From Parabacteroides distasonis (GTDB taxonomy: Bacteria > Bacteroidota > Bacteroidia > Bacteroidales > Tannerellaceae), in NCBI RefSeq assembly GCF_004793765.1, contig NZ_SRYM01000001.1, positions 62,001 through 126,000 on the forward strand: 64,000 nt of DNA, written 5' to 3'. Shown here one piece after another: positions 15,680 to 33,150 of this stretch. A program made the position numbers and the translations under genes. The notes under the pieces are model-generated. The model saw nothing but the letters and a program-made list of their open reading frames with translations. It did not search any database and had not been told where the DNA came from. Each line of letters begins with the position of its first letter. Position 1 is the stretch's first letter.

Positions 15680-15695
15680 ATCGGTTCAACCCTTT

Positions 15696-16298: not shown

Positions 16299-16343
16299 AA
16301 GATATAAATTAATGAATAATGAGTAAATGAATAATGGCGAGGC

Positions 16344-17807
16344 CTAATTCTCAATTTTTAATTTTCCATTTTCAATTGCCGAAAGCCACAGCCCGGCGAA
16401 CGTGATGCTACCGTTTACCATAAGCATCTCGTAGCCGAATGTATAGCCTGCGTATTGTTTCACCAAGAAATCAGTGGCGAGGCAAATCAACGGGGAGGCT
16501 ATACAGATATAAGGCACGTATTTGTCACGAGGTTTCCGCTTCGTGAAAAGCCCGAAAACAAACAGCCCCAATAGAGGACCATACGTGTACGACGCTATCA
16601 TGTAGATCGCATCGATAACGCTCCGGTTATTTACGGCCTTAAACGCCAAGATGATCAAGACGAACAAGATGGATATCATCACGTGTACCTTCAAGCGGGT
16701 ACGTTTCGCTCTTTTAGCTTCCTCTTTCTGCACGCCGAGGATATCCACGCAAAAAGAAGTGGTGAGTGCTGTCAACGCCGAGTCGGCACTACTGAAAGCC
16801 GCCGCTATGATGCCGATCGTGAAGAAGATCAAGATACTCCCGCCTAATATCCCCGAGGTACAAAACATCGGGAGGATATCGTCGCCTAAGGTCGGCAATT
16901 GGATGTTTTGTTGTGCCGCCAATGTCAGTAGCAGTACCCCCAGTGCGAGAAACAGGAAGTTGACTGGCGTGAAAGCGAAGCCATATGTGTACATATTCTT
17001 CTGGGCATCCTTCAAGCTCTTGCAGGAGAGGTTCTTTTGCATCATGTCTTGATCCAGCCCGGTCATGACGATCGTGATAAAAATACCGCTGAAGAACTGC
17101 TTGAAGAAGTTCTGCGTACTATGCCAATCGCCGAACTCGAAGATCCGGAAATGGGGGCTTTCCACCAAGGTCTGCGCCATACCCCCGAAATCCAGTCCCA
17201 TCTTGTCCTTCACCTGCCAGATGATCACGATCAACATCACTACAAGACAAAGAGCCTGCAACGTATCTGTCCAGATGATCGTCTTGATGCCGCTCCGGAA
17301 CGTATATAGCCATACCAGCAGGATACTTAGGATAGCGGTCATGGCGAATGGAATGTCCCAAGCATTGAACACGTAGGTTTGCAAGATCAAGACTACCAGA
17401 TATAAGCGTGCGGCTGCTCCTACGATCTTCGAGAGCAAGAAGAACGAGGCCCCTGTCTTGTACCCCCTTCTTCCGATCCGGTCCTCCAGATACGAGTAGA
17501 TGGAGGTAAGTCGCAACTTATAGTATAGCGGTAGCAATATCTTGGCTATAATGATATATCCTACGAAGAAGCCCAATACCGTCTGCATATACGTCATATC
17601 GATCGCTCGCACCATACCGGGTACCGATACGAACGTCACCCCCGATAAGGATGTCCCTACCATGCCGATCGAGACGATATACCAAGGGGATTTCCTGTTC
17701 CCGAGGAAGAATGCCTCGTTACTGTTATTACGCCCCGTAATCCATGCTATCAGCAACAAGACGGCGAAATAGGCAGCGATAATAAAAAGGATCATATAGC
17801 TGTTCAT
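16344..17807 (-). CDS. Sodium:solute symporter family protein
   Basis: The 487-residue protein has about 13 hydrophobic helices and an SSS-family signature near the start: GRNNSNEAFFLGNRKSPWYIVSIGMVGTSLSG is reflected by the NEAFFLGNR and GMVGTSLSGVTFVSVPG segments. This is the LeuT-like fold that couples Na+ to uptake of sugars, amino acids or organic acids. SSTrees of this family do not allow a substrate guess from sequence by eye. It is followed by engB after 45 bases and stands downstream of a hairpin-repeat spacer. The C-terminus ends with a short charged tail. Confidence 0.9.
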   Translation of the reverse strand: MNSYMILFIIAAYFAVLLLIAWITGRNNSNEAFFLGNRKSPWYIVSIGMVGTSLSGVTFVSVPGMVRAIDMTYMQTVLGFFVGYIIIAKILLPLYYKLRLTSIYSYLEDRIGRRGYKTGASFFLLSKIVGAAARLYLVVLILQTYVFNAWDIPFAMTAILSILLVWLYTFRSGIKTIIWTDTLQALCLVVMLIVIIWQVKDKMGLDFGGMAQTLVESPHFRIFEFGDWHSTQNFFKQFFSGIFITIVMTGLDQDMMQKNLSCKSLKDAQKNMYTYGFAFTPVNFLFLALGVLLLTLAAQQNIQLPTLGDDILPMFCTSGILGGSILIFFTIGIIAAAFSSADSALTALTTSFCVDILGVQKEEAKRAKRTRLKVHVMISILFVLIILAFKAVNNRSVIDAIYMIASYTYGPLLGLFVFGLFTKRKPRDKYVPYICIASPLICLATDFLVKQYAGYTFGYEMLMVNGSITFAGLWLSAIENGKLKIEN

Positions 17808-17879
17808 GTATTGCTAACTTCTTTCTTCTTTTCCGCAAAGATACAGCTTTACTTTGAAATAACCGGCATATGCGTGAAT

Positions 17880-17945
17880 TCTACCGTGATGGGTTTCAAG
17901 AAACTCATCACGGTAGTCCATGAAAGCATCCAGATTTTGGACATC
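17880..17945. repeat. Three degenerate 22-nt units with a strong hairpin
   Basis: The spacer between the SpoIID-like gene and the symporter reads as three 22-nt units (17880-17901, 17902-17923, 17924-17945). The first two pair as a hairpin: CTACCGTGATG against CATCACGGTAG, plus GTTTC against GAAAC. It sits where a terminator for the OPT/SpoIID operon would be expected, but no T-run follows. The period matches arrays elsewhere in the window. Confidence 0.6.
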
Positions 17946-17950
17946 CTTGT

Positions 17951-19264
17951 TTAATACCTTTTCTCAATAGAGGCTCCGGGGAAATAATGCGTGAGGATTT
18001 TCCGGTACGAATACCCTTTGGCTCCCATCACGGCGGCTCCGATCTGGCAAAGCCCTACGCCATGTCCCCATCCGGCTCCTGTCAAGATGAAGCGAGAGGG
18101 GATATCAAGGCGGATATCCTTCTTATCGACAACAAAGGCCGAGCTGTATAGATGCGTCTCGGACAATGTCCTGCGTATCTCAAGCTCTTTGCCGATGGTG
18201 AACGAACGGCGTACCCCTAGGATCTTGAGTTTCGTGATACGTCCGGACGAACCTCTTTCCAACGGTATGAGATCGATGATCGGCCCGAAATCCATACCCG
18301 TTTTCCGGAGGATCAACCCCGATAGTTCCTCCTGCGTATATTCTACTTTCCAACGGTAGAAATCCGTGGTCTCCTGATCATAGTGGTTTAGCACTTGGCT
18401 AAGGATCTCCTTGTCTGCCGTATTGCAGAAGGCTTCGGGTGAGGTACGTATCCATTGTTCCGCTTCCCGTTCGTCTGTCAAGTCGGGATAGGAGGGAGCC
18501 TCATCATCCCTCAAGGCGGTAAGATAGGAGTGAGGAACCGGTTCCCAGCAATTCTCGAATTTCTCGGTCACGCCTCCGCAGCATTTCGAGAAGCGGGCGT
18601 CGCAGATCGTATCGTTATCCATCAATATCTCTCCACATGTCTCTTTGATCACCTCCCCGACTATCGGGTTTGATGCCCGGGTAATACCTTGGTAACGCTG
18701 GCAATGGTCGTCGGCACAGACATCGAACAAATCATGGTCCTCCCGGTCGTACCAGCGGATCAAGGTCTTGTTGTCGCGGTAACAACTTTTATAGGACGTA
18801 ACCGATCCGTTCAAGTTGAAATTCTTCTCGACCTGTGCCAAGAGCCAGCTTCGCGAGATCACGGCATGGGCTTTCAGCAACTCTTTGGAGGCGTTGGCAC
18901 TCATCTCCGAGGAGATTACGCTGGTAAGGTATTCCTCCACGTCCACTTGATTGATCGTGACGATACCTTTATCGGTCGCCACGAGGTTCAACGCTCCCTT
19001 GAAGCGTTGATCCTCCTGTCGTTGCCAGTGGAAATCCACGCCGATCGTGACCGCCTTCAAGTCGAAAGAGGATTGCGGGCTGGTCGGCTCGAAGAATAGC
19101 TCCTGATAAAGCTTCCCATTGTACACGATTTTGCCGTTTACCCAGAGGGCACGTTGCTCGCCTATCGTGAACGTGCCGGTTTCTGCATGTACATACTCCT
19201 CGTTAAAAACAAATGAGATTGCTTTGTGGGTCATGATTCCCACATTGATTACAGGTGCTTCCAT
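17951..19264 (-). CDS. SpoIID/LytB domain protein
   Basis: The 437-residue protein contains the SpoIID core: VDVEEYLTSVISSEMSANAS, KAHAVISRSWLL, a cysteine-rich CCGGVTEKFENCW segment and the C-terminal GWGHGVGLCQIGAAVMGAKG motif. SpoIID in sporulating Firmicutes is a lytic transglycosylase that acts on stripped glycan strands; in Bacteroidetes a cell-wall remodelling role is inferred. No signal peptide is obvious, since the N-terminus is EAPVINVGIMTHKAISF, so the start may be misplaced or the export unusual. It is 18 bases after the OPT transporter gene and likely co-transcribed with it, which would be consistent with muropeptide uptake and processing. Confidence 0.88.
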   Translation of the reverse strand: MEAPVINVGIMTHKAISFVFNEEYVHAETGTFTIGEQRALWVNGKIVYNGKLYQELFFEPTSPQSSFDLKAVTIGVDFHWQRQEDQRFKGALNLVATDKGIVTINQVDVEEYLTSVISSEMSANASKELLKAHAVISRSWLLAQVEKNFNLNGSVTSYKSCYRDNKTLIRWYDREDHDLFDVCADDHCQRYQGITRASNPIVGEVIKETCGEILMDNDTICDARFSKCCGGVTEKFENCWEPVPHSYLTALRDDEAPSYPDLTDEREAEQWIRTSPEAFCNTADKEILSQVLNHYDQETTDFYRWKVEYTQEELSGLILRKTGMDFGPIIDLIPLERGSSGRITKLKILGVRRSFTIGKELEIRRTLSETHLYSSAFVVDKKDIRLDIPSRFILTGAGWGHGVGLCQIGAAVMGAKGYSYRKILTHYFPGASIEKRY

Positions 19265-19282
19265 ATCCTTATTCCTTATATT

Positions 19283-21280
19283 CTATTCTTTTTTCGCGTT
19301 CAGGGAATTAAATGTGAGGTAAGCGATCATGACAAGGTACATGACAACCGCCAGTATCTCGGCGGCATTGCTAGATGCCCATTCCTCGTTCATCAAGTTG
19401 ATTCCGCCGAAACGTAAGGCCGCGCTGACCACGCCCATCAAGGCACCGCCGGCGATAAAGCCGGAAGCCAGTAACGTACCTTTCTCCAAGCGGGCTGAGT
19501 TCAAGTTTTGGTCTTTGCTACGGCTTCCTACGTACCAACTGATCGCTCCACCGATCAAAAGCGGCGTATTCAGGTCCAAAGGGATAAACATACCCAAGGC
19601 GAATGCCAACGCCGGTATCTTGCAGAAGTTCAATACGACGGCGAGGACGGCCCCGATCGCGTATAAAGCCCATGGTGCCCCCGAACCACTCATCAACGGC
19701 TCGATAACGGCGGCCATAGCGTTCGCTTGCGGAGCGGCCAATTGTCCGGTCGTGAAACCGTACGTCTGGTTCAATATCAAGATCACGCCTCCTACCGTAG
19801 CGGCAGAAACTAATGTGCCTAAGAATTTCCAAGTCTCTTGCTTGGCGGGTGTGCTCCCCAGCCAATAGCCGATCTTTAAGTCGGTAATGAAACCTCCTGC
19901 CATGGAAAGCGCCGTACAAACCACGCCTCCGATAATCAAGGCGGATACCATACCGGCCGGCCCCTTCAACCCTACGGCGACCAAGATGATGGAGGCGAGG
20001 ATCAACGTCATGAGCGTCATGCCCGATACCGGGTTCGTTCCTACGATAGCTATAGCGTTTGCCGCTACGGTCGTAAAAAGGAATGCGATCACCCCGACCA
20101 GCAATAAGCCGATGGCGGCATGGAACCAATTATGAAGTACGCCGAACTGGAAGAACAGGAAGGTGACGATCAGCGATACGATGATACCGATCGTTATCAC
20201 CTTCATCGACAAGTCCTTTTGCGTACGTATGGTATTACTCTCCACGGTGTCTCCTTTTCCTTTCAATTCGTTCGCAGCCAAGCCTACGGCTCCCTTGATG
20301 ATCCCCCAAGATTTGATGATGCCGATCACCCCGGCGGTAGCGATACCCCCGATACCGATGTGGCGGGCGTAGGTGGTGAAGATTTGCTCGGCGCTCATGC
20401 TTCCGACGGTCGCCGTGATAGCGTCATTGCCGAACGTAAGTACGTCGGCACTGAAAATAGCGGACATGGCCGGGATGATCACCAGCCATACCAAGAATGA
20501 GCCGGCACAGATAATCAAGGAGTATTTTAATCCGATGATGTAACCCAAACCAAGCACGGCGGCTCCCGTATTGACCTTTAACACGATCTTGGCTTTCTCC
20601 GCCAGCATCTCGCCGGCCCCGACGATACGGGTACTGATCGTCTCGCCCCACCAACCGAAGGTAGCGATGATGAAGTCGTACAAACCACCGATTAATCCGG
20701 CGAATATCAAGGGCTTCGCTTGACTTCCGCCTTTCTCGGCGGAGACGAGTACTTGCGTGGTTGCCGTAGCCTCCGGGAAAGGATACTTACCGTGCATATC
20801 GGATACGAAATATTTACGGAACGGGATCAAGAGCAAGATCCCGATGATACCTCCTAACAAGGAACTCATGAAAACCTCGAAGAAATTGACCGTGATCTCC
20901 GGATATTTGTCTTGCAGGATATAAAGGGCGGGCAAGGTGAAAATGGCTCCCGCCACGATCACGCCGCTACTGGCCCCGATAGACTGTATGATGACGTTTT
21001 CTCCCAAAGCGTTCTTCCGCTTGAATCCGCTGGACAACCCCACGGCGATGATAGCGATCGGGATGGCGGCCTCGAATACCTGACCGACCTTCAGGCCCAG
21101 ATAGGCGGCCGCCGCGCTGAATATCACCGCCATGACCAATCCCCAAAGGACGGACCAAGGCGTAATCTCCGGATAGTGTTTGTTGGGAGACATAAGAGGC
21201 TTGTAGCTTTCCCCTTCTTTTAATTCTCGGTAGGCGTTTTCAGGCAGCCCGGTTACCTTTTCTTCATTTTCTGGTTTCAC
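19283..21280 (-). CDS. OPT family oligopeptide transporter
   Basis: This 665-residue protein has about 15 TM helices and the OPT-family features: an ITPWSVLWGLVMAVIFSAAAAY start, YPFPEATATTQVL, and a long hydrophobic C-terminal half with GGAISWYVGSRSKD. Members import peptides or, in some branches, metal chelates using a proton gradient. It heads a two-gene operon with the SpoIID-like protein. A TAAATTTG promoter element lies 59 bases upstream. The reading frame starts at a GTG or ATG near 21280 with MKPENEEKVTGLPENAY. Confidence 0.92.
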   Translation of the reverse strand: MKPENEEKVTGLPENAYRELKEGESYKPLMSPNKHYPEITPWSVLWGLVMAVIFSAAAAYLGLKVGQVFEAAIPIAIIAVGLSSGFKRKNALGENVIIQSIGASSGVIVAGAIFTLPALYILQDKYPEITVNFFEVFMSSLLGGIIGILLLIPFRKYFVSDMHGKYPFPEATATTQVLVSAEKGGSQAKPLIFAGLIGGLYDFIIATFGWWGETISTRIVGAGEMLAEKAKIVLKVNTGAAVLGLGYIIGLKYSLIICAGSFLVWLVIIPAMSAIFSADVLTFGNDAITATVGSMSAEQIFTTYARHIGIGGIATAGVIGIIKSWGIIKGAVGLAANELKGKGDTVESNTIRTQKDLSMKVITIGIIVSLIVTFLFFQFGVLHNWFHAAIGLLLVGVIAFLFTTVAANAIAIVGTNPVSGMTLMTLILASIILVAVGLKGPAGMVSALIIGGVVCTALSMAGGFITDLKIGYWLGSTPAKQETWKFLGTLVSAATVGGVILILNQTYGFTTGQLAAPQANAMAAVIEPLMSGSGAPWALYAIGAVLAVVLNFCKIPALAFALGMFIPLDLNTPLLIGGAISWYVGSRSKDQNLNSARLEKGTLLASGFIAGGALMGVVSAALRFGGINLMNEEWASSNAAEILAVVMYLVMIAYLTFNSLNAKKE

Positions 21281-21338
21281 GATATTAAAATGTTAGATTA
21301 TTAGTTCGTAATAGCCCCACCAAACGGGTGTTGGGTGA

Positions 21339-21346
21339 CAAATTTA
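21339..21346 (-). promoter_or_regulatory. Bacteroidetes -7 element for the OPT-SpoIID operon
   Basis: On the minus strand TAAATTTG fits TAnnTTTG, 59 bases before the OPT start codon. No good -33 element is visible. Confidence 0.5.
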
Positions 21347-21425
21347 TGTTTTCTGGCTGAGACCTGCAAGGATTCTTTAGAATAGTTAGGGGAATTCTTG
21401 CCCGGTAGCGTATGCATTCTTGTTC

Positions 21426-21509
21426 GCATGCTGTATAATTCTACAAACCACGGCGTGATCTGTACAGACCACGCCGTGGAATATACAGATCACGTCGTGG
21501 TCTGTACAT
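21426..21509. repeat. Array of four degenerate 21-nt palindromic units
   Basis: The 355-base spacer between the OPT gene and the GTPase cassette holds units at about 21426-21446, 21447-21467, 21468-21488 and 21489-21509. Each has a CACG(G/C/T)CGTG-like core and ends near TACA(G/T). Neighbouring units are inverted, so 21448-21479 is a near-perfect 32-base palindrome. The rest of the spacer shows no gene. Confidence 0.75.
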
Positions 21510-21634
21510 CCCATGTCGATCTTTTGGAAATAGATCAAGTAGCAAGTATGTTTGTATATGGCAAAAAGAATGTTTATTGTTTGGGGATACGAACAATTGT
21601 ATTTGGAGCCGTTGTGGCTACATGTGCGAGGCCG

Positions 21635-22966
21635 CTATCGGCTTAAGTCAAGCGTGACTTCATGCAAGTATCCTTCGGCATTCCCATATTTCACTCTATA
21701 GTATCCGTCTTTGTGATTCAGATAGAAGACATCTACTTTCCAACCTTTGTGCAGGGTGATGATTGGGCGAGCTAACGGGTCTCTGTCCACTCGAAGATCG
21801 ATGTTATTGAATTTCACTGTGCCGGTTATGGTTTGTCTGTTGCCTGATCTCTTATGGGATGAAGAGGATTGATTGTTGTTCGATTTATAAGTGGAAGAGG
21901 TCGAGCTCTCATGCTTCCTTTGGTTTTGGGCAGCTAGAAGGTTATAATAATAATCCCGGTCTGAGATTGCGCCATTAAGAGATGCTCTTAGTTTAGCGTT
22001 GTTTGCCAAGGCATCGCTTAATTCTTGCTGTAATTCTTCGATTTCTCTATCTTTCGTTGCCATATGGGTTAAGAACGTTGAGCGTTCATCTGCTTGGTCT
22101 TGCCTTAGTTTCGAAAGTCTGTTTTTCGTGTTTTCGTGCTGGCTTTGCTCTGATGACAAATCACTTTCAACTTTGCTCAATGTTTCCTGTGTCTCGATTA
22201 AAGAATGACTCGTCTTGTTGATCTTTCCAGCGAATATGAACAATCCTAAGATACATATCGAGGCTACTATGCTCAGGAATATGACCTTGTTTTTTTGTTT
22301 CTTCTCTTTTTCTAATCTGATTATATTGGCCATTAGTTTATCATTATCTTCTTGCAACTCTTTTTTTTCTTGGTTGAGTCGTTTGATCCTCCTTTTATAG
22401 CCAGTCAACGCTTGCGAGTCCTCTTCTTTCGTTATGAACGTATAACCATACGTATAAGAAGCTCTCAATATATCTTCCTGCGTATCCGAGGAGATGGCGA
22501 ATCGCTTTTCTTCTTCCTTAGATATACTATAGGGCTGGGTCGGTAGTTTCTGTAGGCTGGGTTCCAGCTTGTTCAGATCGTTCTCTAATGAACTGATTAT
22601 TTGAAGCAGGATGCGTTTATGAGAGACTAACGAGGCCGCATGAGCCACGATCTCTCCTAGATTATTGATCTTTAAGATCTCCCCGCTCACGGAAAGATGG
22701 GTGATCGTGTTTTCAAACAACTCGAAAAGACCGTTGAGATCGCTTATCATGACTGAGTTAAGTAGGAAGCAGAATCCGATATACTCATTTCTCTCCAAAT
22801 GGCGTGTATAGGTATAATACATTAAGTTATTGCTCCTGTGTATGACTAATTGCGCCGGGGAGGATTGCTTCTTGTTTACATTTTTGAAGATGTTCTGTGT
22901 ATAATCTTGGGGATATTGGGCATAACCAGTCCCGAGGTTTCCGAATATATAAGTCGTGGTATTCAT
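21635..22966 (-). CDS. GAP1-N-like coiled-coil membrane protein with C-terminal SH3b domain
   Basis: The 443-residue protein has an N-terminal domain of about 150 residues (YIFGNLGTGYAQYPQDY, LVIHRSNNLMYYTY) resembling the N-terminus of the 23484-24677 product. Then come a coiled coil (about 185-222), one TM segment (about 226-246, VIFLSIVASICILGLFIFAG), a second coiled coil (about 250-340), a Ser/Asn-rich linker and an SH3b-like domain from about 383 to the end (NIDLRVDRD, GYYRVKYGNAEGYLHE). The first half should lie in the cytosol and the SH3b domain in the periplasm, where it could touch peptidoglycan. It is the last gene of the cassette, 2 bases after the retropepsin gene. No established function is known to me. 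Confidence 0.75.
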   Translation of the reverse strand: MNTTTYIFGNLGTGYAQYPQDYTQNIFKNVNKKQSSPAQLVIHRSNNLMYYTYTRHLERNEYIGFCFLLNSVMISDLNGLFELFENTITHLSVSGEILKINNLGEIVAHAASLVSHKRILLQIISSLENDLNKLEPSLQKLPTQPYSISKEEEKRFAISSDTQEDILRASYTYGYTFITKEEDSQALTGYKRRIKRLNQEKKELQEDNDKLMANIIRLEKEKKQKNKVIFLSIVASICILGLFIFAGKINKTSHSLIETQETLSKVESDLSSEQSQHENTKNRLSKLRQDQADERSTFLTHMATKDREIEELQQELSDALANNAKLRASLNGAISDRDYYYNLLAAQNQRKHESSTSSTYKSNNNQSSSSHKRSGNRQTITGTVKFNNIDLRVDRDPLARPIITLHKGWKVDVFYLNHKDGYYRVKYGNAEGYLHEVTLDLSR

Positions 22967-22968
22967 CG

Positions 22969-23487
22969 CTATTTTAGTTTGAATTTGAGTTTGTTGTTAT
23001 CGTTGTCGATCGTTATGGTTGCGAGGCGGTTTAGAATTTCATTCCCTAACAATAGCGGGGCGTTGAGATTGTTCGAGACGGTGGCAGTGACGTTCGGACA
23101 GACAATTTGATCATCTATGACTATCTCTTTTAAGTTCACGACCATATTTTCCACGATACTACCATCCGCTATTTGGGATTTGCTGATACCTAAAAGATCC
23201 TCTTTTGCCAACTTCCCTTTCTGGTAAAGATAGTTGGCTTCTGCCAACGATAAAAGCGTACTGGAACAGCCTGTGTCGAATATCATTTCCAAAGGCATTC
23301 CGTTGACCTCTACCTGTATGTATTTCACGCCATTCTCTTCTCGGAAAGGGATCGAAATCTCTTTATCGGACAATGTGATGTCCTGATACTCCAAGTTCGT
23401 GTCATCGGAGTAATAGACGGGTCTCTTTTTTTCTTGGGTACAGGAGAGTAAAAAAACAATCATCAAAGCGTATAATACTGTTTTCAT
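22969..23487 (-). CDS. Retropepsin-like aspartic protease lipoprotein
   Basis: The 172-residue protein has a lipoprotein signal with the lipid Cys at residue 16 (FLLSC). The mature part is a single clan AA aspartic-protease domain: MIFDTGCSSTLLS carries the catalytic Asp at residue 71 in a DTG motif, and APLLLGNEIL near 143-152 is the typical hydrophobic-hydrophobic-Gly element. Such domains act as homodimers. It should sit in the periplasm, tethered to a membrane. It overlaps the upstream gene by 4 bases and is followed 2 bases later by the SH3b protein. Cleavage of one of its membrane partners is an attractive idea but is only inference. Confidence 0.82.
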   Translation of the reverse strand: MKTVLYALMIVFLLSCTQEKKRPVYYSDDTNLEYQDITLSDKEISIPFREENGVKYIQVEVNGMPLEMIFDTGCSSTLLSLAEANYLYQKGKLAKEDLLGISKSQIADGSIVENMVVNLKEIVIDDQIVCPNVTATVSNNLNAPLLLGNEILNRLATITIDNDNNKLKFKLK

Positions 23488-24677
23488 CCCTTGTCCTTTT
23501 GAGAATGGTTTTTGTTTGTGCTAGTCGAATCTTTTTCTGTTTCCATTTGCGCCTGCCATTTTTCCTCCAATTCTCTGTTGGCATTCTTCAAGCTATCATT
23601 CTCTAGTTTGAGTCTTTCTATATCATTGTCAGTTTCTTGATTCAAGGGAACTGGGATTTTGAACATCCCGTTTTGAAATACGCATGATAACAGAAGAATT
23701 AACATGCACATATTTAAGAAGGGTATGAACCGCCTTATAGCTTTTATTGATTTGCCAAGCCATTTCTCTTTTTGCTCCTCCAGCTTGTCTTTAAAGGGAG
23801 GTGCGGCTTGCGTGAAGTAATCCGTTATTTGTGCGATAGGAACTTTGATGTGTTCGATCAATTGCTCCACATTTTTAGCTCGTTCGATGCTTTTCAACTT
23901 GGAACGTAAGTCATGAATGTCTTGTTTTAATTGCTTGATCTCGGACTCTTGTTTTTGTACCCTTTCTCGTGCGGCTGCTAATTCTTGGTGGAGTTGCTCT
24001 TTCTTCTCCTCATTTGTATTTTTTATTACCTCATATTGTTGGATCGTGTTTTGCAGATTTTTGTCACACAGCTCTTTCACTTGATTGATCTTAATGGTTG
24101 GGTAGTCTGGAGATACATCGAGCTTCCCTGTCTGCCAGATCATTTTTTGTAGGTCGGTCTCCGAATAATCATACAAATTGACAAAGTTGCTTTGTCTGGT
24201 CTTTGCTGAAAAAGTAGAGTCCAAGGGCTGGAAGTTGTCTGAAGTGAAAGCTCTTTTGAGTAATTCGAATGCGCTTAGGTTTAGCTCTTCGATCTTTTTG
24301 GATATCGAGGTATCCTTGAAGCCGCCAACTAGGAACTGAGTCTTTTCGCCGATCTTCTTGACGAGCGTATTTTTAATGTACATATAATAGAACGTGTCCA
24401 GCAGCCGATACATATTCCGGATATCTGAGCAATAGGCATCCAATCGTAACGAGATGCCAAAAAAAGAACCCGGTCGCCCTTCGGAATCTATTACATCTCT
24501 ATATATTAGATAGTTGTAATAACAATACAGGATGCCATTGCTTGATCGTCGGATCTCAATGAGCATTTTGTTCTCGTTCGAATTGTTGTACATGGTATCG
24601 AAGTAAGCTTTGTCTTCTTCTTTGCCCCAATAGCTGTAGCCAAGTGGCGTTCCGTATATGAAAAACTCTACATTCAT
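23484..24677 (-). CDS. GAP1-N-like coiled-coil protein with C-terminal TM segment
   Basis: The 397-residue protein begins with a domain of about 150 residues (FIYGTPLGYSYWGKE, IEIRRSSNGILYCYYNY, SFFGISLRLDAY). Its order of motifs follows the start of the 21635-22966 product and, from memory, the GAP1-N domains described with TRAFAC GTPases. A long coiled coil runs from about 205 to 265. One TM segment lies at about 322-343, and a charged helical tail rich in Lys, Glu and Ser/Thr follows. The large N-terminal part should be cytosolic, where it could meet the GTPase encoded directly upstream (4-base gap). The function is not established. Confidence 0.75.
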   Translation of the reverse strand: MNVEFFIYGTPLGYSYWGKEEDKAYFDTMYNNSNENKMLIEIRRSSNGILYCYYNYLIYRDVIDSEGRPGSFFGISLRLDAYCSDIRNMYRLLDTFYYMYIKNTLVKKIGEKTQFLVGGFKDTSISKKIEELNLSAFELLKRAFTSDNFQPLDSTFSAKTRQSNFVNLYDYSETDLQKMIWQTGKLDVSPDYPTIKINQVKELCDKNLQNTIQQYEVIKNTNEEKKEQLHQELAAARERVQKQESEIKQLKQDIHDLRSKLKSIERAKNVEQLIEHIKVPIAQITDYFTQAAPPFKDKLEEQKEKWLGKSIKAIRRFIPFLNMCMLILLLSCVFQNGMFKIPVPLNQETDNDIERLKLENDSLKNANRELEEKWQAQMETEKDSTSTNKNHSQKDKG

Positions 24678-24681
24678 TGTC

Positions 24682-25629
24682 TTATCCTCTAATCAGTTTA
24701 ACAATTGTCTTCCAAAAATTCTCAGGATAGATATCGTGTCCGTTCTCGAACCCCAATGTCCCATCTGTACACTTGGGATAACTTCCTGTTTGGAAGGCTA
24801 TAAATTCGAAGTTGTACTCTTTCCACCACTTGAAGATCGGCACCTCATTTTTGAATGGAACAAACACGTTTGGATAGAGATTCCGGATCTCCCTCATGGC
24901 CTCTCTCATCTGTACTTTCCCCGGATTTATGATATAGGGGGTCTCATCGATCTTGTTGAATACAAATAAGATCTTATCCCTTGATTTTATGTTCTTTTTC
25001 AGATTAGTGATCTTGTCTACGTAATTTTTTCGGTCTTGCTCGTTCTTCATATTTTTGTTGGTATGATCAGGCTCCACTATGATCGCCCAGATTTTCCGGT
25101 TCTTGCTATTGATGATGGTGTTTATGTAGCGTATATCTTCAGGTTTTCCTGTAGGAACTTGCGGATTGAAGTAATGCTCTCCGGGTGCTTCCAGTATTTG
25201 GCAAATCGATTTGCCTTGATACAGTATTTTTACTAACATGAAGTTGATTAGGTTCGTGCTATCAGCGGCGTTTTCGCTATTTATCATAGAGTCGAAGTGG
25301 GTACATATCTCCTTATAATTTTTGTCGGTCGATGGTCGGAACGACGTGACGGGTTGTATGGTATATCCATTCAAGCCTCGTAGGTATCTCGCCAAACGTA
25401 CCAAGGTCATAGTCTTCCCGCAAGAGGGAGGACCGAACAGAATCACTAGCGGTGTAGTCTCGTCCGCTATGGTCACGGTGATTTTATTTGGGTCATTCTC
25501 GGTTTCGACATCATTGTCTTGAGTAAGGATGTCTTGTCGGATGTTAGTGGAGGATGTAGAGATTCCCCCTTTGTTCTGTGTCTTTCTGTTGCTCTCGTCA
25601 GCGGGAGAGCTGAAATCTATGTCTGCCAT
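24682..25629 (-). CDS. TRAFAC-like P-loop GTPase
   Basis: The 315-residue protein has an about 50-residue polar N-terminal tail, then a GTPase core. Walker A is GPPSCGKT at residues 66-73. The G3 position reads LEAPGE (146-151), where the usual DxxG is replaced by EAPGE. The G4 motif is NKID at 225-228, in KILFVFNKIDE. There is no TM segment. NKxD plus this G3 variant fit the TRAFAC GTPases that Bacteroidetes encode beside GAP1-like proteins; this family link is from memory. It lies 21 bases after the four-TM gene and 4 bases before the coiled-coil gene. It is probably the nucleotide-driven switch of the cassette. Confidence 0.8.
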   Translation of the reverse strand: MADIDFSSPADESNRKTQNKGGISTSSTNIRQDILTQDNDVETENDPNKITVTIADETTPLVILFGPPSCGKTMTLVRLARYLRGLNGYTIQPVTSFRPSTDKNYKEICTHFDSMINSENAADSTNLINFMLVKILYQGKSICQILEAPGEHYFNPQVPTGKPEDIRYINTIINSKNRKIWAIIVEPDHTNKNMKNEQDRKNYVDKITNLKKNIKSRDKILFVFNKIDETPYIINPGKVQMREAMREIRNLYPNVFVPFKNEVPIFKWWKEYNFEFIAFQTGSYPKCTDGTLGFENGHDIYPENFWKTIVKLIRG

Positions 25630-25650
25630 TTCTTTTTTATTTGTTTATGA

Positions 25651-26709
25651 TTAGTATTCACTTTCCTTGAAGGCGATGTCAAAAAATATGAATGCTGCGA
25701 TATCTACGAGTATGGATATGATGATCCAAAAGGTGAAGCCATATCCATTATAGTTACCCTTCAGGTAATCAATCCATACGTCGAATACGCTGGTGATACG
25801 TTTCACTTCGGTGATGGGATTGTCGGCCGTGTATTTGGCTTTGTCGTTTTCAGAAGCGAAGTTCACGAAATTCTGGTTTTTCTTGACAGTGTTGTAACCT
25901 ACGTTCAATTTGTCGCAAACATCGGTTATGTCCTTGGCATCGTTGAGGTTGATGGTTCCATCATCGATATATTTTTTAACCAGTGTAAGATTTTCGTCAT
26001 GAAGTTTCACCTCTTTCAGGTTGTCTTGGTTTGGGCTTAATATGTGTGACATAAGGTTAGTCGCTTTGGAATCTGTAAGAATTAGCACTTTCTTGCGGTA
26101 AGCATTGCATAGTTTGTTTCGCTCTTGCACGGATAATCCTTGATACGTGAGAGGCTCGATTTTATCTACGCCCAATTGAGCGGCCAGTTTGCGAAGAATA
26201 TCGTTTGATTTCGGACCAAACCCGGGATTCGCCTCGTTTTTGATCTCCGCCTCTAGTTCATCCAATAAGATGTCTACATCATTTCTCAGCTCATTGATCT
26301 TTATCGTGGCTTGGTTCTTATTGTTCGTATTGTTCTTTATTTGTCCGAGGTATCCTCGTGTGGAGGAAATGTCTGTGTTTACTTTATCATTGATGATGTT
26401 GCGATAAAAGAATGTATGGGTGTTTGTCGGCATGCTACATATCAGCCAAAACATGAGCAGTATAAGAATGCCTAGGATCAACTTAGATCCTCGTCTTTCG
26501 ACATAGATGTTTTGGCTTATGCTATCAGTGATCATCTTGGTACCTATGGAGGCGATGATGAAGAAGCCCACCGTGACCACCCAGCACATGACTTTGGGAA
26601 AAGCGGGAAGAAGTAGGTGCAAGGACTCAGCGGTCGCCCAGCAACTGACTGCGGCGAATGCGGTAAACGCAATCAACGAGAATAATTTCTTGTAATTTGT
26701 TTGGTTCAT
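25651..26709 (-). CDS. Four-TM membrane protein heading the GTPase cassette
   Basis: The 352-residue protein has three TM helices in the first 100 residues (about 10-30, 36-58, 77-96) and one near the C-terminus (about 325-345, FWIIISILVDIAAFIFFDIAF). Between them is a polar region of about 220 residues with Lys/Asn-rich helices, which from helix counting should be outside the cytosol. I do not recognise the family; the plan is similar to DUF4407-like membrane proteins. It is the first gene of the cassette and lies about 65 bases downstream of the ncRNA candidate's terminator. A sensor or channel role is conceivable but unproven. Confidence 0.72.
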   Translation of the reverse strand: MNQTNYKKLFSLIAFTAFAAVSCWATAESLHLLLPAFPKVMCWVVTVGFFIIASIGTKMITDSISQNIYVERRGSKLILGILILLMFWLICSMPTNTHTFFYRNIINDKVNTDISSTRGYLGQIKNNTNNKNQATIKINELRNDVDILLDELEAEIKNEANPGFGPKSNDILRKLAAQLGVDKIEPLTYQGLSVQERNKLCNAYRKKVLILTDSKATNLMSHILSPNQDNLKEVKLHDENLTLVKKYIDDGTINLNDAKDITDVCDKLNVGYNTVKKNQNFVNFASENDKAKYTADNPITEVKRITSVFDVWIDYLKGNYNGYGFTFWIIISILVDIAAFIFFDIAFKESEY

Positions 26710-26774
26710 GATGCATGTGTTTTTAACCTGCTGTTCCCCAAACAGTGTAGGATTGTACCTCTTAAAAAACGAAA

Positions 26775-27052
26775 GGCGTGGGAACTGTACCTGTCACTCG
26801 TTCCACGCTAAGAGGCCTTCGCATTGCCCATCAAGTCTGAACGAGCAACGCAGAAGCCCACGCCGATATGTAATATAGTCTCAACCGTATAAAATCAGCT
26901 AAGATATATGTGTACACATCCCGTAGACATCTACTGTTGCTTTGTTTTCGACTTGATTTGGAAATTGCGAAGTTCCTTAGCGTCAAAACCAAAGCGTCAA
27001 GTAAACGCCTTTCTAATATATATATGTCCCCACCCATATATCGGCGTGGAAA
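26775..27052 (-). ncRNA. Structured ncRNA candidate with own promoter and terminator
   Basis: On the minus strand a TATATTTG element (27059-27066) is followed by a sequence that folds well. A 12-bp closing helix pairs 27038-27049 with 26858-26869 (CCACGCCGATAT against ATATCGGCGTGG) around about 168 bases, in which ACTTGA/TCAAGT and TTTGG/CCAAA form an inner stem. A second hairpin follows (GGCTTCTGCGTTGC with GCAATGCGAAGGCC). The transcript would end at a terminator hairpin (26775-26809, GCGTGGAAC with GTTCCCACGC) and a T-rich tract. The rod of about 190 bases with inner loops recalls 6S RNA, but I see no decisive 6S signature. It matches neither tmRNA, RNase P nor SRP RNA. No protein gene is plausible here. 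Confidence 0.6.
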
Positions 27053-27058
27053 CGTTTG

Positions 27059-27066
27059 CAAATATA
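27059..27066 (-). promoter_or_regulatory. Bacteroidetes -7 element of the ncRNA candidate
   Basis: TATATTTG on the minus strand fits TAnnTTTG. It would start transcription about 7 bases downstream, just before the closing helix of the RNA. Confidence 0.55.
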
Positions 27067-27275
27067 CGTTTTTTATATGACTCATAGGGTAATTGTTCTG
27101 ATTTTTTTATAAATAAGTAAATTGTTGTTTTGGCCTCATTCATATCTTTAAATAGAACCAAGATAACTGCGGCAAAATATATAAAAAGAGAAGATCTTCC
27201 TTAATTAAATCCGATGATAATAGAGGTTTATTGTCGATTCTTTAGTATACCTTAATATTTCCCAGTTGTACTTCG

Positions 27276-27342
27276 TGAGAAACATGTACGACTTTTCCCG
27301 AAAACACGTACGTATTTTGATGAATACATGATCGTGTTTTTT
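27276..27342. repeat. Three degenerate 22-23-nt units with CATGTACG/CACGTACG cores
   Basis: In the 430-base spacer between the ncRNA candidate and recR, units at 27276-27298, 27299-27320 and 27321-27342 share (A)A(A/T)ACA(T/C)G(T/A)(A/T)CG followed by a T-rich end. The cores ACATGTACG and CACGTACGT are partly palindromic. The rest of the spacer is AT-rich with no gene seen. Confidence 0.65.
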
Positions 27343-27465
27343 TGCAATTGGTATTCAAAGGCTTATGCTCTTATTTCGTTTTGTGTGCTTATTGTCCGGA
27401 ATTTCTCTTTGAATGTGATTTTGATTTTGGTGTGGTTACCCTATGACTAACTCGTAAATTCTTCC

Positions 27466-27473
27466 TATTTTTG
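27466..27473 (+). promoter_or_regulatory. Bacteroidetes -7 element for recR
   Basis: TATTTTTG fits TAnnTTTG and lies 20 bases before the recR ATG, giving a very short leader. No obvious -33 element. Confidence 0.55.
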
Positions 27474-27493
27474 TAGTCAAATAGAGAAAGTAG

Positions 27494-28120
27494 ATGAATC
27501 AAAGATATCCTTCTGCCTTGTTGGAAAATGCCGTGAATGAATTGGCTTCCTTGCCGGGAGTGGGGCGGAAGACAGCGCTCCGGCTGGCGCTTTATATGTT
27601 GCGCCGGGATGTCGGTTATACGGAAAACTTCGCTGCGGCCTTGGTCGCCCTCCGTCGAGACGTGAAGTACTGCAAGGTCTGTCATAATATATGTGATGAT
27701 GAGGTTTGCTCTATTTGCGCCAACCCCAGCCGTGACCATTCCTTGGTTTGCGTGGTAGAGAATATCAAGGAGGTAATGGCGATAGAGAATACCGGGCAAT
27801 TCCGTGGCGTATACCATGTGTTGGGCGGGATCATCTCGCCAATGGATGGTATCGGACCGGGAGACTTGCGTATCGACAGTCTGGTGCGACGTGTGGCCGA
27901 AGGTGAGGTGAAAGAGATCATCTTGGCGTTGAGCACCACCATGGAAGGCGATACGACTAATTTTTTTATTTACCGGAAGTTATCCGGTTACGATGTGAGG
28001 ATCAGTGTCATCGCACGTGGCGTGTCTATTGGCGATGAGATCGAGTATGCCGACGAGATCACCTTAGGGCGGTCCATTATCAATCGTACTGAGTTCAACC
28101 TCACTTCTCCTAATTCATAA
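27494..28120 (+). CDS. recR: Recombination mediator RecR
   Basis: The 208-residue protein has all RecR parts: the helix-hairpin-helix [17 protein letters not shown] (about 20-36), a four-Cys zinc finger [16 protein letters not shown] (about 58-73), a Toprim domain beginning [17 protein letters not shown] (about 82-98), and the C-terminal [20 protein letters not shown]. With RecO and RecF it loads RecA on gapped DNA. It starts a run of plus-strand genes (glycosyltransferase, GNAT), with 23 bases to the next gene. Confidence 0.97.
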
Positions 28121-28143
28121 ATCCTAATTCATAAATATCTGGA

Positions 28144-29310
28144 ATGACCTACGAAGAAACCAAGTTGTCCGTTATCATCGTTAACTATAACGTGAAGTAT
28201 TTTCTGGAGCAATGCCTCTATTCTGTCCGTGCCGCCGTAACGGGGATGGATGCCGAGGTGTTCGTGGTGGATAATAACTCGACGGATGGATCTGTCGAAT
28301 ATCTCCGGCCTAAGTTCCCGGAGGTGGTTTTCATTGAGAATAAAGATAATCCCGGTTTCGCCAAGGCCAATAATCAGGCGATTCGCCAGTGCGCCGGGGA
28401 ATACGTGTTATTGCTGAATCCCGATACCGTGGTGGGAGAGGAGAGCCTCCGCAGCCTGTGCTTCCAGATGGATGAGGACCCGGAGATCGGAGCTATCGGC
28501 GTGAAGATGTTGAATGGGCATGGGGTATTCTTGCCGGAGAGCAAACGGGCTTTCCCTTCGCCTTGGGTGTCGTTCTGCAAGATATTCGGCCTTTCAAAGC
28601 TGTTTCCTAACTCTCCGGCATTCGCACGTTATAGCCTTCCGTATCTGGATAAAGAGCAGACGCATAAGGTGGAAGTGCTGGCGGGTGCGTTCATGTTGCT
28701 TCGTCATGAGGCGTTGGATAAGGTTGGTTTGTTGGACGAGTCGTTCTTCATGTATGGGGAGGATATCGATCTGTCTTATCGGATCGTGTTGGGAGGTTAT
28801 AAGAACTTGTACGTGCCGGAACGGATCCTGCATTATAAGGGGGAGAGTACGAAGCATGGCGACTTGAAGTACATAAAGGCTTTTTACGGTGCCATGTTGA
28901 TTTTCTATAAGAAATATTATCCGGGGTCCGGCTGGTTGATGCGAATATTGATCCGGTTGGCTGTCCTGCTGAAAGCTTGTTGGGCGACGATTTTCGCCCC
29001 TCTACGTAAGAAGACTAAAGCGGCTAAGCATCGCCGCCTTTTGATCTTGTGTAGGGAGGATCATTTTGAGGAGGTAAAGGCTGTTTGCCTGAAAGCTATG
29101 CCGGATCTGGAGTTTGTGAATCTCTGGGATTTAGACGTGGAGCGTGTGATGGATGCTATCTGCCGCAAGAATCAGATGAAAGGCTTTACGGACTACGCTT
29201 TCTGCTTCCCCGATGCCCGTTACGAGCAGATGCTCTTGTTTATGGACAAGCTCGTGAACAAGAAAGCGGTTTACCATATATATACGAAGAAGAGTGGCCG
29301 GCTTGTTTAA
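28144..29310 (+). CDS. Glycosyltransferase family 2 protein with extra C-terminal domain
   Basis: The 388-residue protein is a GT-A enzyme: LSVIIVNYNVKYFLEQC near the start, VVDNNSTDGSVEYLR, LLNPDTVVGEE with the metal-site DxD equivalent, and FFMYGEDIDLSYRI, the acceptor-side motif of rhamnosyl- and related transferases. After a hydrophobic segment at about 260-285, the last 85 residues (LLILCREDHFEEVKAVC to the end) form a small added domain that I do not recognise. It probably transfers a sugar to a lipid-linked or cell-surface acceptor at the membrane. It follows recR by 23 bases. Confidence 0.88.
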   Translation: MTYEETKLSVIIVNYNVKYFLEQCLYSVRAAVTGMDAEVFVVDNNSTDGSVEYLRPKFPEVVFIENKDNPGFAKANNQAIRQCAGEYVLLLNPDTVVGEESLRSLCFQMDEDPEIGAIGVKMLNGHGVFLPESKRAFPSPWVSFCKIFGLSKLFPNSPAFARYSLPYLDKEQTHKVEVLAGAFMLLRHEALDKVGLLDESFFMYGEDIDLSYRIVLGGYKNLYVPERILHYKGESTKHGDLKYIKAFYGAMLIFYKKYYPGSGWLMRILIRLAVLLKACWATIFAPLRKKTKAAKHRRLLILCREDHFEEVKAVCLKAMPDLEFVNLWDLDVERVMDAICRKNQMKGFTDYAFCFPDARYEQMLLFMDKLVNKKAVYHIYTKKSGRLV

Positions 29311-29327
29311 GTAATCCTTGGGTAAAT

Positions 29328-29843
29328 ATGTTGTTATCGAATGATAGAGTCCGTTTGAGGGCATTGGAACCAGAGGATCTGGATTTGTTGTATCGTTGGG
29401 AGAATGATCCGGTGTTATGGGAAGTAGGGAATACTTTGGCTCCCTATTCCCGTTATCTATTGAAGGAATATATAGCGGGTAGTGACCGGAGTATCTATGA
29501 GTCTCGCCAACTTCGCTTCATGATCGAGGAATGCGATACGGGGATTTCCGTGGGGATCGTGGACTTATTCGATTTCGAGCCTCATCCGAACCGGGCGGCT
29601 TGCGGTATTATGCTAGATCGTAAGTATCAAGGACGTGGCTTCGCTACGGAAGCGTTAAGGCTATTGATGGAATACGCTTATACGTTCTTGAAACTTCATC
29701 AACTTTATGTGCATATTCCCGTGGCAAACGAGCCTAGCAAAAAATTATTTACCCGTTTGGGATTTGTTGAGGCGGGGACGCTTAAGGACTGGATCAGGAC
29801 ACCAGGTGGTTATTCTGATGTCTGCATAATGCAGTTAATTTAA
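29328..29843 (+). CDS. GNAT family N-acetyltransferase (RimJ/SpeG-like)
   Basis: Using the ATG at 29328, 17 bases after the glycosyltransferase stop, the protein is 171 residues. A longer frame from 29085 overlaps the previous gene out of frame and is not credible. The sequence shows the GNAT fold: RVRLRALEPEDLDLLYRWEND at the start (strand 1 and helix 1), GIVDLFDFEP, the acetyl-CoA-binding loop YQGRGFATEALRLL (about 105-118), and VANEPSKKLFTRLGFVEAG (helix 4 region). The substrate could be a polyamine, an amino acid or a protein N-terminus. Its 3' end overlaps the convergent yqgE gene by 9 bases. Confidence 0.92.
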   Translation: MLLSNDRVRLRALEPEDLDLLYRWENDPVLWEVGNTLAPYSRYLLKEYIAGSDRSIYESRQLRFMIEECDTGISVGIVDLFDFEPHPNRAACGIMLDRKYQGRGFATEALRLLMEYAYTFLKLHQLYVHIPVANEPSKKLFTRLGFVEAGTLKDWIRTPGGYSDVCIMQLI

Positions 29844-30431
29844 ATACGGGTCCTTCGGATATTTTGTCCAAGTCTTATAATCATTGCCTAATAATTCTAC
29901 GGAATCTTTCCAATAACTCTCCCCATCGGCAGACAGGATATTATCAGTGGTAATATGGCTTACGGCCCATGAGTTCCGTTTGATTTCATGGTTTAATTGT
30001 CCTTCGGTCCATCCGGAGTATCCCAAGAAAAACTTCACTATCCTATCGATTGGATGCCCGTTGAGGATATATTGTTTCAATGCGTTGAAATCCCCATCGA
30101 AATATAAATTATCATTGATCTTTAATGCGTCCGGAATGATGTTATCCCCTAAGGAATGAATAAAGAACAAGCGGTTGGGGCTGACCGGTCCCCCCAGATA
30201 AATCGGTATCTCCGGAAACTCGGCGAACTCCTTGAAAAAAGTATTTACGATGAGATCCGTCTTTTTATTCAGGACAAATCCCATCGATCCGTGTTCCGTA
30301 TGCTCTATTAATAATACGACGGAACGTTGAAAGTAGGCATCTTGTAAAAAGGGCTCGGCAATCAGAATACTTCCTTGGGCTGGAAGGACATCGTTATGTG
30401 TTATTTTGAATATATTTTTGTAAGATGCCAT
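29835..30431 (-). CDS. YqgE/AlgH family protein
   Basis: The 198-residue protein begins LPAQGSILIAEPFLQDAYFQRSVVLL and contains GSMGFVLNKKT, YLGGPVSPNRLFFIHS and FFLGYSGWTEGQLNHEI, all diagnostic of the YqgE/AlgH family. The molecular function is not settled; the fold is a compact alpha/beta domain and roles in regulation have been proposed for AlgH. Length is normal. It stands alone on the minus strand, tail to tail with the GNAT gene. Confidence 0.93.
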   Translation of the reverse strand: MASYKNIFKITHNDVLPAQGSILIAEPFLQDAYFQRSVVLLIEHTEHGSMGFVLNKKTDLIVNTFFKEFAEFPEIPIYLGGPVSPNRLFFIHSLGDNIIPDALKINDNLYFDGDFNALKQYILNGHPIDRIVKFFLGYSGWTEGQLNHEIKRNSWAVSHITTDNILSADGESYWKDSVELLGNDYKTWTKYPKDPYLN

Positions 30432-30501
30432 GATCGTGAATGTTAGGTTGTTACTAATTCACCGACAATATAAGACGATTTTTAATAAGATGCAAATGAA
30501 A

Positions 30502-30541
30502 AGCCCGGAATTCGAGTTAATAAACGTGAATTGATCGGGCT
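30502..30541 (-). terminator. Terminator of the PLP aminotransferase gene
   Basis: On the minus strand, AGCCCG ... AATTC ... GAATT ... CGGGCT forms a stem just after the aminotransferase stop and is followed by TTTTCATTTG, a weak T-tract. Confidence 0.65.
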
Positions 30542-30551
30542 TATCGTTAAT

Positions 30552-31865
30552 TTATGCTTGATGATTTTCCTCGAATAATCTTAGTCTTTCGTCCAGCAAG
30601 TCATATTGGTGCTCTTTTATGAAAGAGGTACAAGCCCGTAGTCCTTGTTGGTTACTGCCTGTGGTACTTAATGATATGGCGCTTACTCCGTAATAAATCA
30701 GCTCTTCCATCAATTGTCCGCCGGTCATTCCCGGGTAACCGATCGTGAAATAGAAACCGTCGGCTATCGGTTGGTCCAGATCGTGATCATAAACGATTGT
30801 GAAACCATGATCCGTAAAAATCTTCTTTAGTTTCTCCGCTCGACGTCCGTATTCTTTCACTTGTGAGACAAAGTCGAACGTTCCGTCCGCGGCGGCCTTG
30901 AACATGGCGGCTAGGGCGAATTGGGCGGAGTGGCTGGTTCCGGAAGATAGGGCGTATAAGACACGGTGGATATATACCGTACCGAACGTACCGCCTCCAT
31001 AACGCTGAGTCAATCCCGGATAGGAGCGATGATAAAGTTTATTGGAGATCGCTGTTACGCCGATACGCTGTCCGGCATAGCTGAACGCCTTGGAGCCGGA
31101 TATCTGCATGATATAATTATCGGTATAACGGGCTACGCTCGCTTGGTAAGGAGGCTCGAAAGGACATCCGAGGTCCTTGCGAAAATCCATGGCAAAGTAG
31201 GCGAGGTCTTCTATGACAATCACGTCGTATTTGTTGGCCATCTCGCCGATGATCTTTAACTCCTCGTCGGTGAGGCAAAACCAAGCCGGATTGTTTGGGT
31301 TAGAATAGATCATCGCGGCAATGTTGCCTTTGGAAAGTTGTGTTTCCAAGACTTCACGTAATCGCTCACCACGATATTCGTATACGTCGAACGACTCGTA
31401 TTTATAGCCCATAACGGCTATTTGCTGTTTCTGCACGGGGAATCCGGGGTCGATAAACAAGATGGTGTCTTTTCCCGGCATACATTGTCCGGCCGTAAGG
31501 AATGAGGCGTATGTGCCCTGCATGGAACCGGTTACGGGTACGCAACACTCCGGGTCTATATCTATATTTATAAACGCTTTGATAAAGCGGGAAGCTTGCT
31601 TTTTCACTTCGGGAGTTCCGTTGATGTTCGGGTAGATGGATGCTATACCGTTACGAAGGGCTTCGATCTCAGCGTCTACGCCTACTTGGGCAGCTTTCAA
31701 GCCCGGTACGCCCATTTCCATATGGATGAACTCGGTTCCCGTTTCTTGTTCCAATTGCGTGGATATGGCAACTACCTCCCGGATAGTCGCTTTCCCAAAA
31801 TCGGGAAGTCCAAAGCCATCGATAATTCGTCTGGCTGTCTGATAGTCTACAGGAGTATTTTTCAT
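30552..31865 (-). CDS. Pyridoxal-phosphate-dependent aminotransferase (class I/II)
   Basis: From the ATG at 31865 the protein has 437 residues; an upstream start at 31892 would add a poorly conserved nine. It is a fold-type I enzyme: NGTPEVKKQASRFI, TGSMQGTYASFL as the phosphate-binding region, NPNNPAWFCLTDEEL, VIEDLAYFAMDFR with the cofactor-nitrogen Asp, and SGSKAFSYAGQRIGV, whose Lys forms the Schiff base. Amino-donor specificity cannot be read by eye. It stands alone, divergent from tRNA-Asp, and has its own terminator. Confidence 0.9.
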   Translation of the reverse strand: MKNTPVDYQTARRIIDGFGLPDFGKATIREVVAISTQLEQETGTEFIHMEMGVPGLKAAQVGVDAEIEALRNGIASIYPNINGTPEVKKQASRFIKAFINIDIDPECCVPVTGSMQGTYASFLTAGQCMPGKDTILFIDPGFPVQKQQIAVMGYKYESFDVYEYRGERLREVLETQLSKGNIAAMIYSNPNNPAWFCLTDEELKIIGEMANKYDVIVIEDLAYFAMDFRKDLGCPFEPPYQASVARYTDNYIMQISGSKAFSYAGQRIGVTAISNKLYHRSYPGLTQRYGGGTFGTVYIHRVLYALSSGTSHSAQFALAAMFKAAADGTFDFVSQVKEYGRRAEKLKKIFTDHGFTIVYDHDLDQPIADGFYFTIGYPGMTGGQLMEELIYYGVSAISLSTTGSNQQGLRACTSFIKEHQYDLLDERLRLFEENHQA

Positions 31866-31938
31866 GCTAGTGTTAATTATATATGGGGACAAAAGTATGA
31901 AATTTATCGATTTGTTCTAATTTTTTCATCCTAAACTA

Positions 31939-31968
31939 TTGCTAATTCAAAAAATCCACCTATCTTTG
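31939..31968 (+). promoter_or_regulatory. Promoter of tRNA-Asp
   Basis: TTG at 31939-31941 and TATCTTTG at 31961-31968 are 19 bases apart, an exact fit to the Bacteroidetes -33/-7 pattern. The tRNA starts 40 bases downstream. Confidence 0.75.
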
Positions 31969-32008
31969 CACCGCAATTCAACGGAATAGCGATAAAGAAT
32001 AACATTTT

Positions 32009-33137: not shown

Positions 33138-33150
33138 TCGGTGTTACGGG

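Follow-up and report, generated by a model that had tools for sequence, protein, structure and literature searches.

What kind of system is encoded by the five adjacent minus-strand genes at positions 21635 to 26709 of a 64,000-nucleotide stretch of Parabacteroides distasonis DNA (contig NZ_SRYM01000001.1; the whole stretch is called the window here)? A first-pass annotation, made from the letters of the DNA, had proposed a GTPase-centred membrane signalling complex and had likened it to TRAFAC GTPase/GAP1 conflict systems. With middling confidence, we read the locus as a horizontally variable operon that encodes a membrane-spanning small-GTPase switch and is headed by a leader RNA. The idea of a signalling complex gained support from a gene order that recurs in other genomes, a Ras-like model of the G domain and a longin model of the first N-terminal domain, whereas membership in the TRAFAC/GAP1 systems was supported neither by Pfam nor by hhalign.

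The five open reading frames (ORFs) were recovered with distances of 21, 4, -4 and 2 bases between them. By hydropathy analysis, the first protein (four-transmembrane [four-TM] protein, 352 amino acids [aa]; 25651..26709) has four hydrophobic helices, as annotated, with about 230 residues separating TM3 from TM4. The second gene (24682..25629) encodes a Ras-like GTPase of 315 aa in which the motifs GPPSCGKT, EAPGE and NKID were all present. It is followed by longin protein 1 (23484..24677), which comprises a longin-like N-terminal domain (residues ~1-190), a coiled coil, one TM helix (317-335) and a short tail; by a lipoprotein of 172 aa resembling retropepsin-type aspartic proteases (22969..23487); and by longin protein 2 (21635..22966), in which the N-terminal domain is succeeded by a coiled coil, a TM helix (228-246), a second coiled coil and a variable C-terminal part. 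The two coiled-coil proteins had been described as membrane anchored and related at their N termini. We found one hydrophobic helix in each, and hhalign matched the N-terminal domains of the pair as homologs over 177 columns (probability 97.4, E value 9e-12). No hydrophobic helix was detected by hydropathy in the GTPase or the protease. This layout would distribute the cassette proteins across cytosol, membrane and periplasm.

Co-occurrence of the five genes in other genomes had been named as the check on the annotation, and the cassette order was found again in many of them. Scanning genome contigs for the GTPase yielded 24 loci, all attributed to Bacteroidales. Across this order the recurring arrangement was four-TM protein, GTPase, coiled-coil protein 1, (aspartic protease) and coiled-coil protein 2. 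Independent loci were counted, with L005, L026-L031, L034, L035 and L038 set aside as repeats of others. The four-TM gene preceded the GTPase in all 29 loci with upstream DNA (28 by search, L047 by eye), directly so in 28; in the exception, L022, and in this cassette only, a macrodomain-like ORF (by eye; 7308-7841) separates the two. The four-TM reading frame of L024 is split in two. Among the 26 loci with a downstream region, longin 1 followed the GTPase in every one (24 by search, L047 by eye, L040 by position only), and longin 2 was likewise always present (25 by search, L047 by eye), some copies being cut by contig ends. The protease was found in 19/26 (18 by search, L047 by eye) and not in L007, L010, L013, L014, L015, L023 and L036. 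Extra longin-type genes occurred in L004, L006 and L036, and additional ORFs interrupted the cassette genes in L036, L037 and L047. In these three divergent cassettes, a secreted-looking ORF of 208 to 242 aa comes next after longin 1. The alignments omitted truncated L022, L024 and L025 and duplicates L001, L005 and L026 (A1); L006:10704, L006:12420, L008, L015 and L017 (A2); and truncated L027 and L028 (A3).

The GTPase was sparsely distributed. It was present in 4/123 genomes of the family and 4/393 of the order, the genome of the window counting in both; in this genome the GTPase and the longin-2 profile each matched once. A search of 296 genomes of the phylum returned a full match in the same genome only; the other three of its four matches were short and partial and were not counted as cassettes. 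Viral contigs contributed two loci, of which L047 was a full cassette adjoining a tyrosine-recombinase-like and an hsdS-like ORF (by eye), and L048 showed the P-loop only and was not used.

The GTPase displayed the signatures of Ras-like TRAFAC proteins, with G1 GxxxxGKT, G3 xxPG and G4 NKxD and with Glu in G3 where Asp is usual. In 23 aligned GTPases, G71, K72, T73, E147, P149, G150, E151, K226 and D228 were invariant, and N225 was kept in at least 90%. The predicted structure has a Ras-like fold, and Gtr, Arl-type and YsxC structures tied as its nearest solved neighbours. Sequence searches of solved structures with profiles of the GTPase, the longins and the protease produced no convincing match, the best being SRP54 at 1.3e-3 with the GTPase profile. 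The N-terminal domain of longin 1 was modelled at a pLDDT (predicted local distance difference test) score of 94 in the longin order b-b-a-b-b-b-a, and the nearest solved structures were a Lokiarchaeal longin, Lst4 and FLCN-FNIP2.

The C-terminal part of longin 2 was variable (alignment A2). Its annotated SH3b end was not confirmed: for the window protein, Pfam listed no SH3 family at E values up to 1. In relative L012 the corresponding end matched SH3_3 at 8.8e-4, below cut-off, and in L040 it matched BACON above cut-off; a YkuD-like end in L006, suggested by eye, received no support from Pfam. Repeated BACON-type secreted proteins were also seen by eye after the cassette at L002 12347-14329 and L019 11913-13520.

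The DTG retropepsin lipoprotein of the annotation stood. Pfam matched PF13975 (gag-asp_proteas) at 43.3 bits (5.7e-11; cut-off, 28.2) and PF13650 (Asp_protease_2) at 1.2e-8, both over cut-off, while TIGR02281 of NCBIfam remained below its own (33.9 versus 57.95); none of the cassette proteins had an NCBIfam match above cut-off. In the protease alignment (A5, n = 14), D71 and G73 were invariant with T or S in between, and so was the lipobox cysteine C16. On these motifs the protein can be assigned to the retropepsin-like class as a predicted protease. The four-TM protein (alignment A4, n = 23) matched DUF4407 weakly, at a best E value of 0.0012 among members.

Upstream of the operon, and outside the coordinates of the first-pass annotation, lies a 250-nucleotide (nt) leader RNA (26764..27013, minus strand), which is rod-like and T-rich at its 3′ end and terminates 54 nt ahead of the four-TM start codon. 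Its minimum free energy was -109.3 kcal/mol, compared to -63.3 (standard deviation, 4.9) for 200 shuffles (z, -9.5). A promoter-like element, TATATTTG, precedes it at 27059..27066 on the same strand; this is a pattern match to TAnnTTTG, the promoter consensus of Bacteroidales. Upstream DNA was alike between several cassettes (for example, 72% over 289 nt between the window and L039; 77% over 283 nt between L022 and L025). A covariance model (R1) was built from five leaders, including that of the window, and matched 13/27 cassettes with upstream DNA, 5 of these 13 by construction because they had entered the model. Among the 14 without a match, L040 still folds as a rod by itself. In L039, an ORF for a secreted-looking protein of 76 aa (10542-10772) lies between the leader and the four-TM gene.

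The leader is not exclusive to this cassette, as copies in the same genome and across Bacteroidales demonstrated. The model detected five copies in the genome of the window, that of the window scoring 1.9e-56 with its own sequence in the model. Of the four others (G000:C105:38917-39173, C168:174-419, C90:61829-62050 and C132:297-530), two are followed on the same strand by an ORF, at 63 and 45 nt, and two lie near contig ends. Under stricter filters, 26/198 Bacteroidales genomes carried 1 to 9 copies. Genomic context was evaluated for 32 loci, 3 of them without a downstream ORF; L091 and L093 were omitted (contig ends), the called ORF overlaps the RNA end in L104 and L106, and two of the loci, L089 and L098, belong to cassettes. 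The nearest downstream ORF was on the leader's strand in 28/29 cases (binomial, 5.6e-8), compared to 14 versus 14 for upstream ORFs, and the leader-to-ORF gap was 45 to 85 nt in 20/28. Ten downstream proteins were scanned with Pfam: vWA, protein kinase and ResIII/PLD helicase families scored over their cut-offs, TerB fell just under, two others were weak and four remained unnamed. Genome G379, which also has a GTPase cassette, carries the leader at two such places (L100 and L125): one copy precedes a vWA gene that has a PP2C-like ORF (by eye) as its neighbour, the other a protein kinase gene. Rfam 15 gave no match at E values up to 1 in window 26600-27500 and none at the leader in eight sources at gathering threshold, and the literature searches made returned no description of this leader. 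One paper (PMC8040213) presents Bacteroidetes palindromic RNA candidates of 80 to 132 bp, and this leader may be among those it tabulates.

Two mutually exclusive folds were assessed by compensatory changes. In 38 copies aligned by the model (A14, which is fitted to the rod and so favours it), 90.8% of the cells of the rod were paired (shuffles, 71.2), 65/75 pairs showed changes on both sides (45.5) and covariation reached 0.529 (0.196; slid, 0.07-0.12). The alternative consists of a 5′ hairpin and a 3′ domain closed by GGCGTGGG/CCCACGCC ahead of the T run; on the same 38 copies it scored 83.0% (79.0) and 24/39 pairs (18.0, reached by 4/500 shuffles). In nine copies aligned without structure (A11, not fitted), the rod gave 83.3% (77.3) and 27/67 pairs (15.0), and the alternative gave 91.7% (85.8) and 16/39 pairs (6.2); here each fold is favoured, as five of these rows served to derive the rod and the full nine to derive the alternative. 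Because both folds use the same strands, the changes counted for one are not independent of those counted for the other, and related sequences alone can exceed shuffles in pair counts. The set of 38 left out L021, weak L115, L117, L118 and L120-L122 and duplicates L089 and L098; two opposite-strand matches (A13) were also kept out of the counts. The rod was more stable than the separately folded halves in 38/38 copies (median, 18 kcal/mol), and 36/38 had at least 6 T in 8 at the 3′ end. These sequence comparisons suggest a bistable RNA that alternates between the rod and a terminator-like fold, a pattern consistent with a bistable attenuator.

The cassette and its leader together form a variable block (21614..27447). 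In a blastn comparison of window 14001-34000 with relative L085, matches ran to 21613 at 95.6% and resumed from 27448 at 96.4% identity, and these two positions are just 81 bp apart in that relative, in which tblastn detected no cassette protein. In G036, this 81-bp spacing and lack of cassette proteins go with a RecR identical to that of the window's genome and flanks that are 95 to 96% identical. The cassette was also missing from the stretches fetched from three other relatives. Its G+C content is 0.41, between flanks of 0.50 and 0.46. As part of our overall explanation, and with the same intermediate degree of confidence, we regard the cassette as a horizontally variable, swappable operon block. 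In L086, the intergenic site between the OPT transporter gene and recR is occupied by a short gene of helix-turn-helix type (by eye); thus, the site may be a hot spot.

How could such a switch work? The N-terminal longin domains would face the cytosol, pair up and bind the GTPase, and the pair may act as its GTPase-activating protein, its guanine nucleotide exchange factor or its effector, in parallel to the roles that longin pairs have with Rag and Rab GTPases. The variable periplasmic ends might detect a ligand, either from the envelope or foreign; the protease, where present, might trim or activate periplasmic parts; and the four-TM protein would serve as scaffold or output. Folding of the leader, either as a long rod or as 5′ hairpin plus terminator-like 3′ domain, probably gates production. 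A role in defence or envelope sensing is a guess, to which the sparse distribution, the empty site and one copy next to an integrase-like ORF lend indirect support for defence. We advance tentatively a bolder version, namely, a class of transmembrane receptors in which paralogous longins relay an outside signal to a Rag-like GTPase across the inner membrane, with the periplasmic retropepsin as a processing step and a new bistable leader defining a shared regulon of accessory operons in Bacteroidales.

Several observations weigh against a longin-controlled, leader-headed GTPase switch. The tie among the structural neighbours of the GTPase means that its Rag-likeness is not specific, and its top Pfam families were of AAA/ATPase_2 type, all below cut-off for the window protein. 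Of the two longin proteins, longin 1 was the one modelled; Foldseek on this model gave nothing at E values of ≤0.001, the top rows being LOV domains, and fold similarity by itself demonstrates no function. The first longin protein of L040 matched neither longin profile. The lack of a detected protease in 7/26 cassettes implies that it is not an obligate output. The model found the leader in only 13/27 cassettes, the leader also heads other operons, and a simple terminator scan (loops of 3 to 8 only) did not flag its end.

We think it unlikely that the cassette is instead a conflict system of DO-GTPase/GAP1 type that has diverged strongly, with longins replacing GAP1, variable ends that recognise invaders and a four-TM output that kills the cell or damages its membrane. 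Kaur et al. (2020; PMC7159879) describe DO-GTPases of the TRAFAC class with a conserved Walker B glutamate, a downstream partner protein and, in some systems, membrane parts and SH3 or beta-sandwich ends. E147 and E151 of the cassette GTPase, either of which may be the equivalent residue, are invariant, and the patchy, swappable cassette with recombinase- and hsdS-like neighbours in L047 would suit such a role. Profile comparisons were made with eight fetched GAP1-N1 systems (L033, L045 and L049-L054; two from Bacteroidota, six from plasmids), comprising 8/8 first GTPases (A8), 7/8 second GTPases (A9) and 7/8 GAP1 N termini (A10; the frame of L051 was uncertain). The cassette GTPase aligned with the first DO-GTPase type at an hhalign probability of 24.4% (E value 8e-4; G1, G3 and G4 spanned) and with the second at 28.8% (6e-4; G1 and G3), compared to 94.6% for the two types with each other as a positive control; a distant tie of the cassette GTPase to these types may exist. 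GAP1-N1 reached a probability of 4.6% with longin 1, of which the first 27 residues aligned, and 0.2% with longin 2. In Pfam, DO-GTPase2 (PF19993) scored 12.3 bits for the window GTPase (cut-off, 27), and 3/23 members matched at E values up to 1 (best, 0.052). For the five cassette proteins, Pfam listed no GAP1 family and no GASH or FNIII partner, the neighbourhood not having been searched by profile for such a partner; nor did a GAP1 family appear among the matches listed for the longin alignments (25 each), and PF20012 and PF20013 had no match in the genome of the window. Among Bacteroidota genomes, GAP1-N2 was found in 0/148 and GAP1-N1 in 1/148; GAP1-N1 was found in 2/246 genomes of another order. 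PADLOC returned weak partial matches only (best GTPase row, mad8, 1e-5, 89 residues around the P-loop), the GTPase had no match in the phage and plasmid collections, and its single copy in the genome likewise speaks against this alternative. The cassette further differs from DO-GTPase/GAP1 systems in its single GTPase, retropepsin and longin pair.

An accessory regulator of envelope stress or secretion, with TagF-like longins restraining an envelope machine and the protease as periplasmic output, appears improbable. TagF, a regulator of type VI secretion, gave the longest structural alignment to the longin model; however, its rows scored under the first longin rows, it had no sequence match in solved structures at E values up to 1, and no secretion genes were recognised by eye in window 19000-29500. 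TagF is also soluble and acts in another pathway. We consider it very improbable that the leader is a DNA-level hairpin, such as a mobile-element end or recombination site, rather than an RNA device. Its up to 9 copies per genome, its self-complementarity, its frequent position beside accessory genes and the two opposite-strand matches would fit such an element, but the strand bias of downstream ORFs, their spacing, the T-rich 3′ end and the scores of both competing folds over shuffles argue against it. Strand bias and pair counts together disfavour a mobile-element end or invertible DNA.

Returning to the GTPase switch, its closest known counterparts would be Rag/Gtr GTPases with the longin regulators FLCN-FNIP, GATOR1 (NPRL2-NPRL3) and Lst4-Lst7. 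These systems likewise combine a Ras-like GTPase with two longin-fold proteins, and chains of these complexes were among the nearest solved structures of both predicted models; the present cassette differs in being bacterial, in having one GTPase gene and in carrying its longins on TM proteins with outer parts. MglA-MglB is similar in joining a bacterial Ras-like GTPase with a dedicated regulator. MglB is a roadblock protein, and that system is not known to have membrane-spanning regulators or a protease. Eukaryotes are known to control small GTPases with longin pairs, and Asgard archaea have longin and Rag-like proteins; a literature search found no description of a bacterial longin-GTPase-retropepsin operon. 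If the reading is correct, a bacterial version of longin-GTPase control inside membrane proteins would constitute a new outside-in signalling route and would be relevant to how Rag/FLCN-type control arose. The leader resembles riboswitch and attenuator leaders in its 5′ position and its two exclusive folds, one with a terminator-like stem at the end, and differs in that no Rfam 15 family matched and that it heads unlike operons. It offers a testable class of structured RNA in which both folds covary and which is shared by accessory operons of Bacteroidales, those with GTPase, vWA and kinase genes among them.

Within window 20000-29000, no tmRNA or tRNA was found. Just downstream of the cassette, at 21442-21508, overlapping palindromes with arms of 16 to 32 nt (84 to 94% complementary) were observed; they are part of the flank, since similar sequence is also present in the empty-site relative L085. 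In L006, the Rfam small RNA FopS (RF04319) was located at 3225-3298, about 3.6 kb from the cassette.

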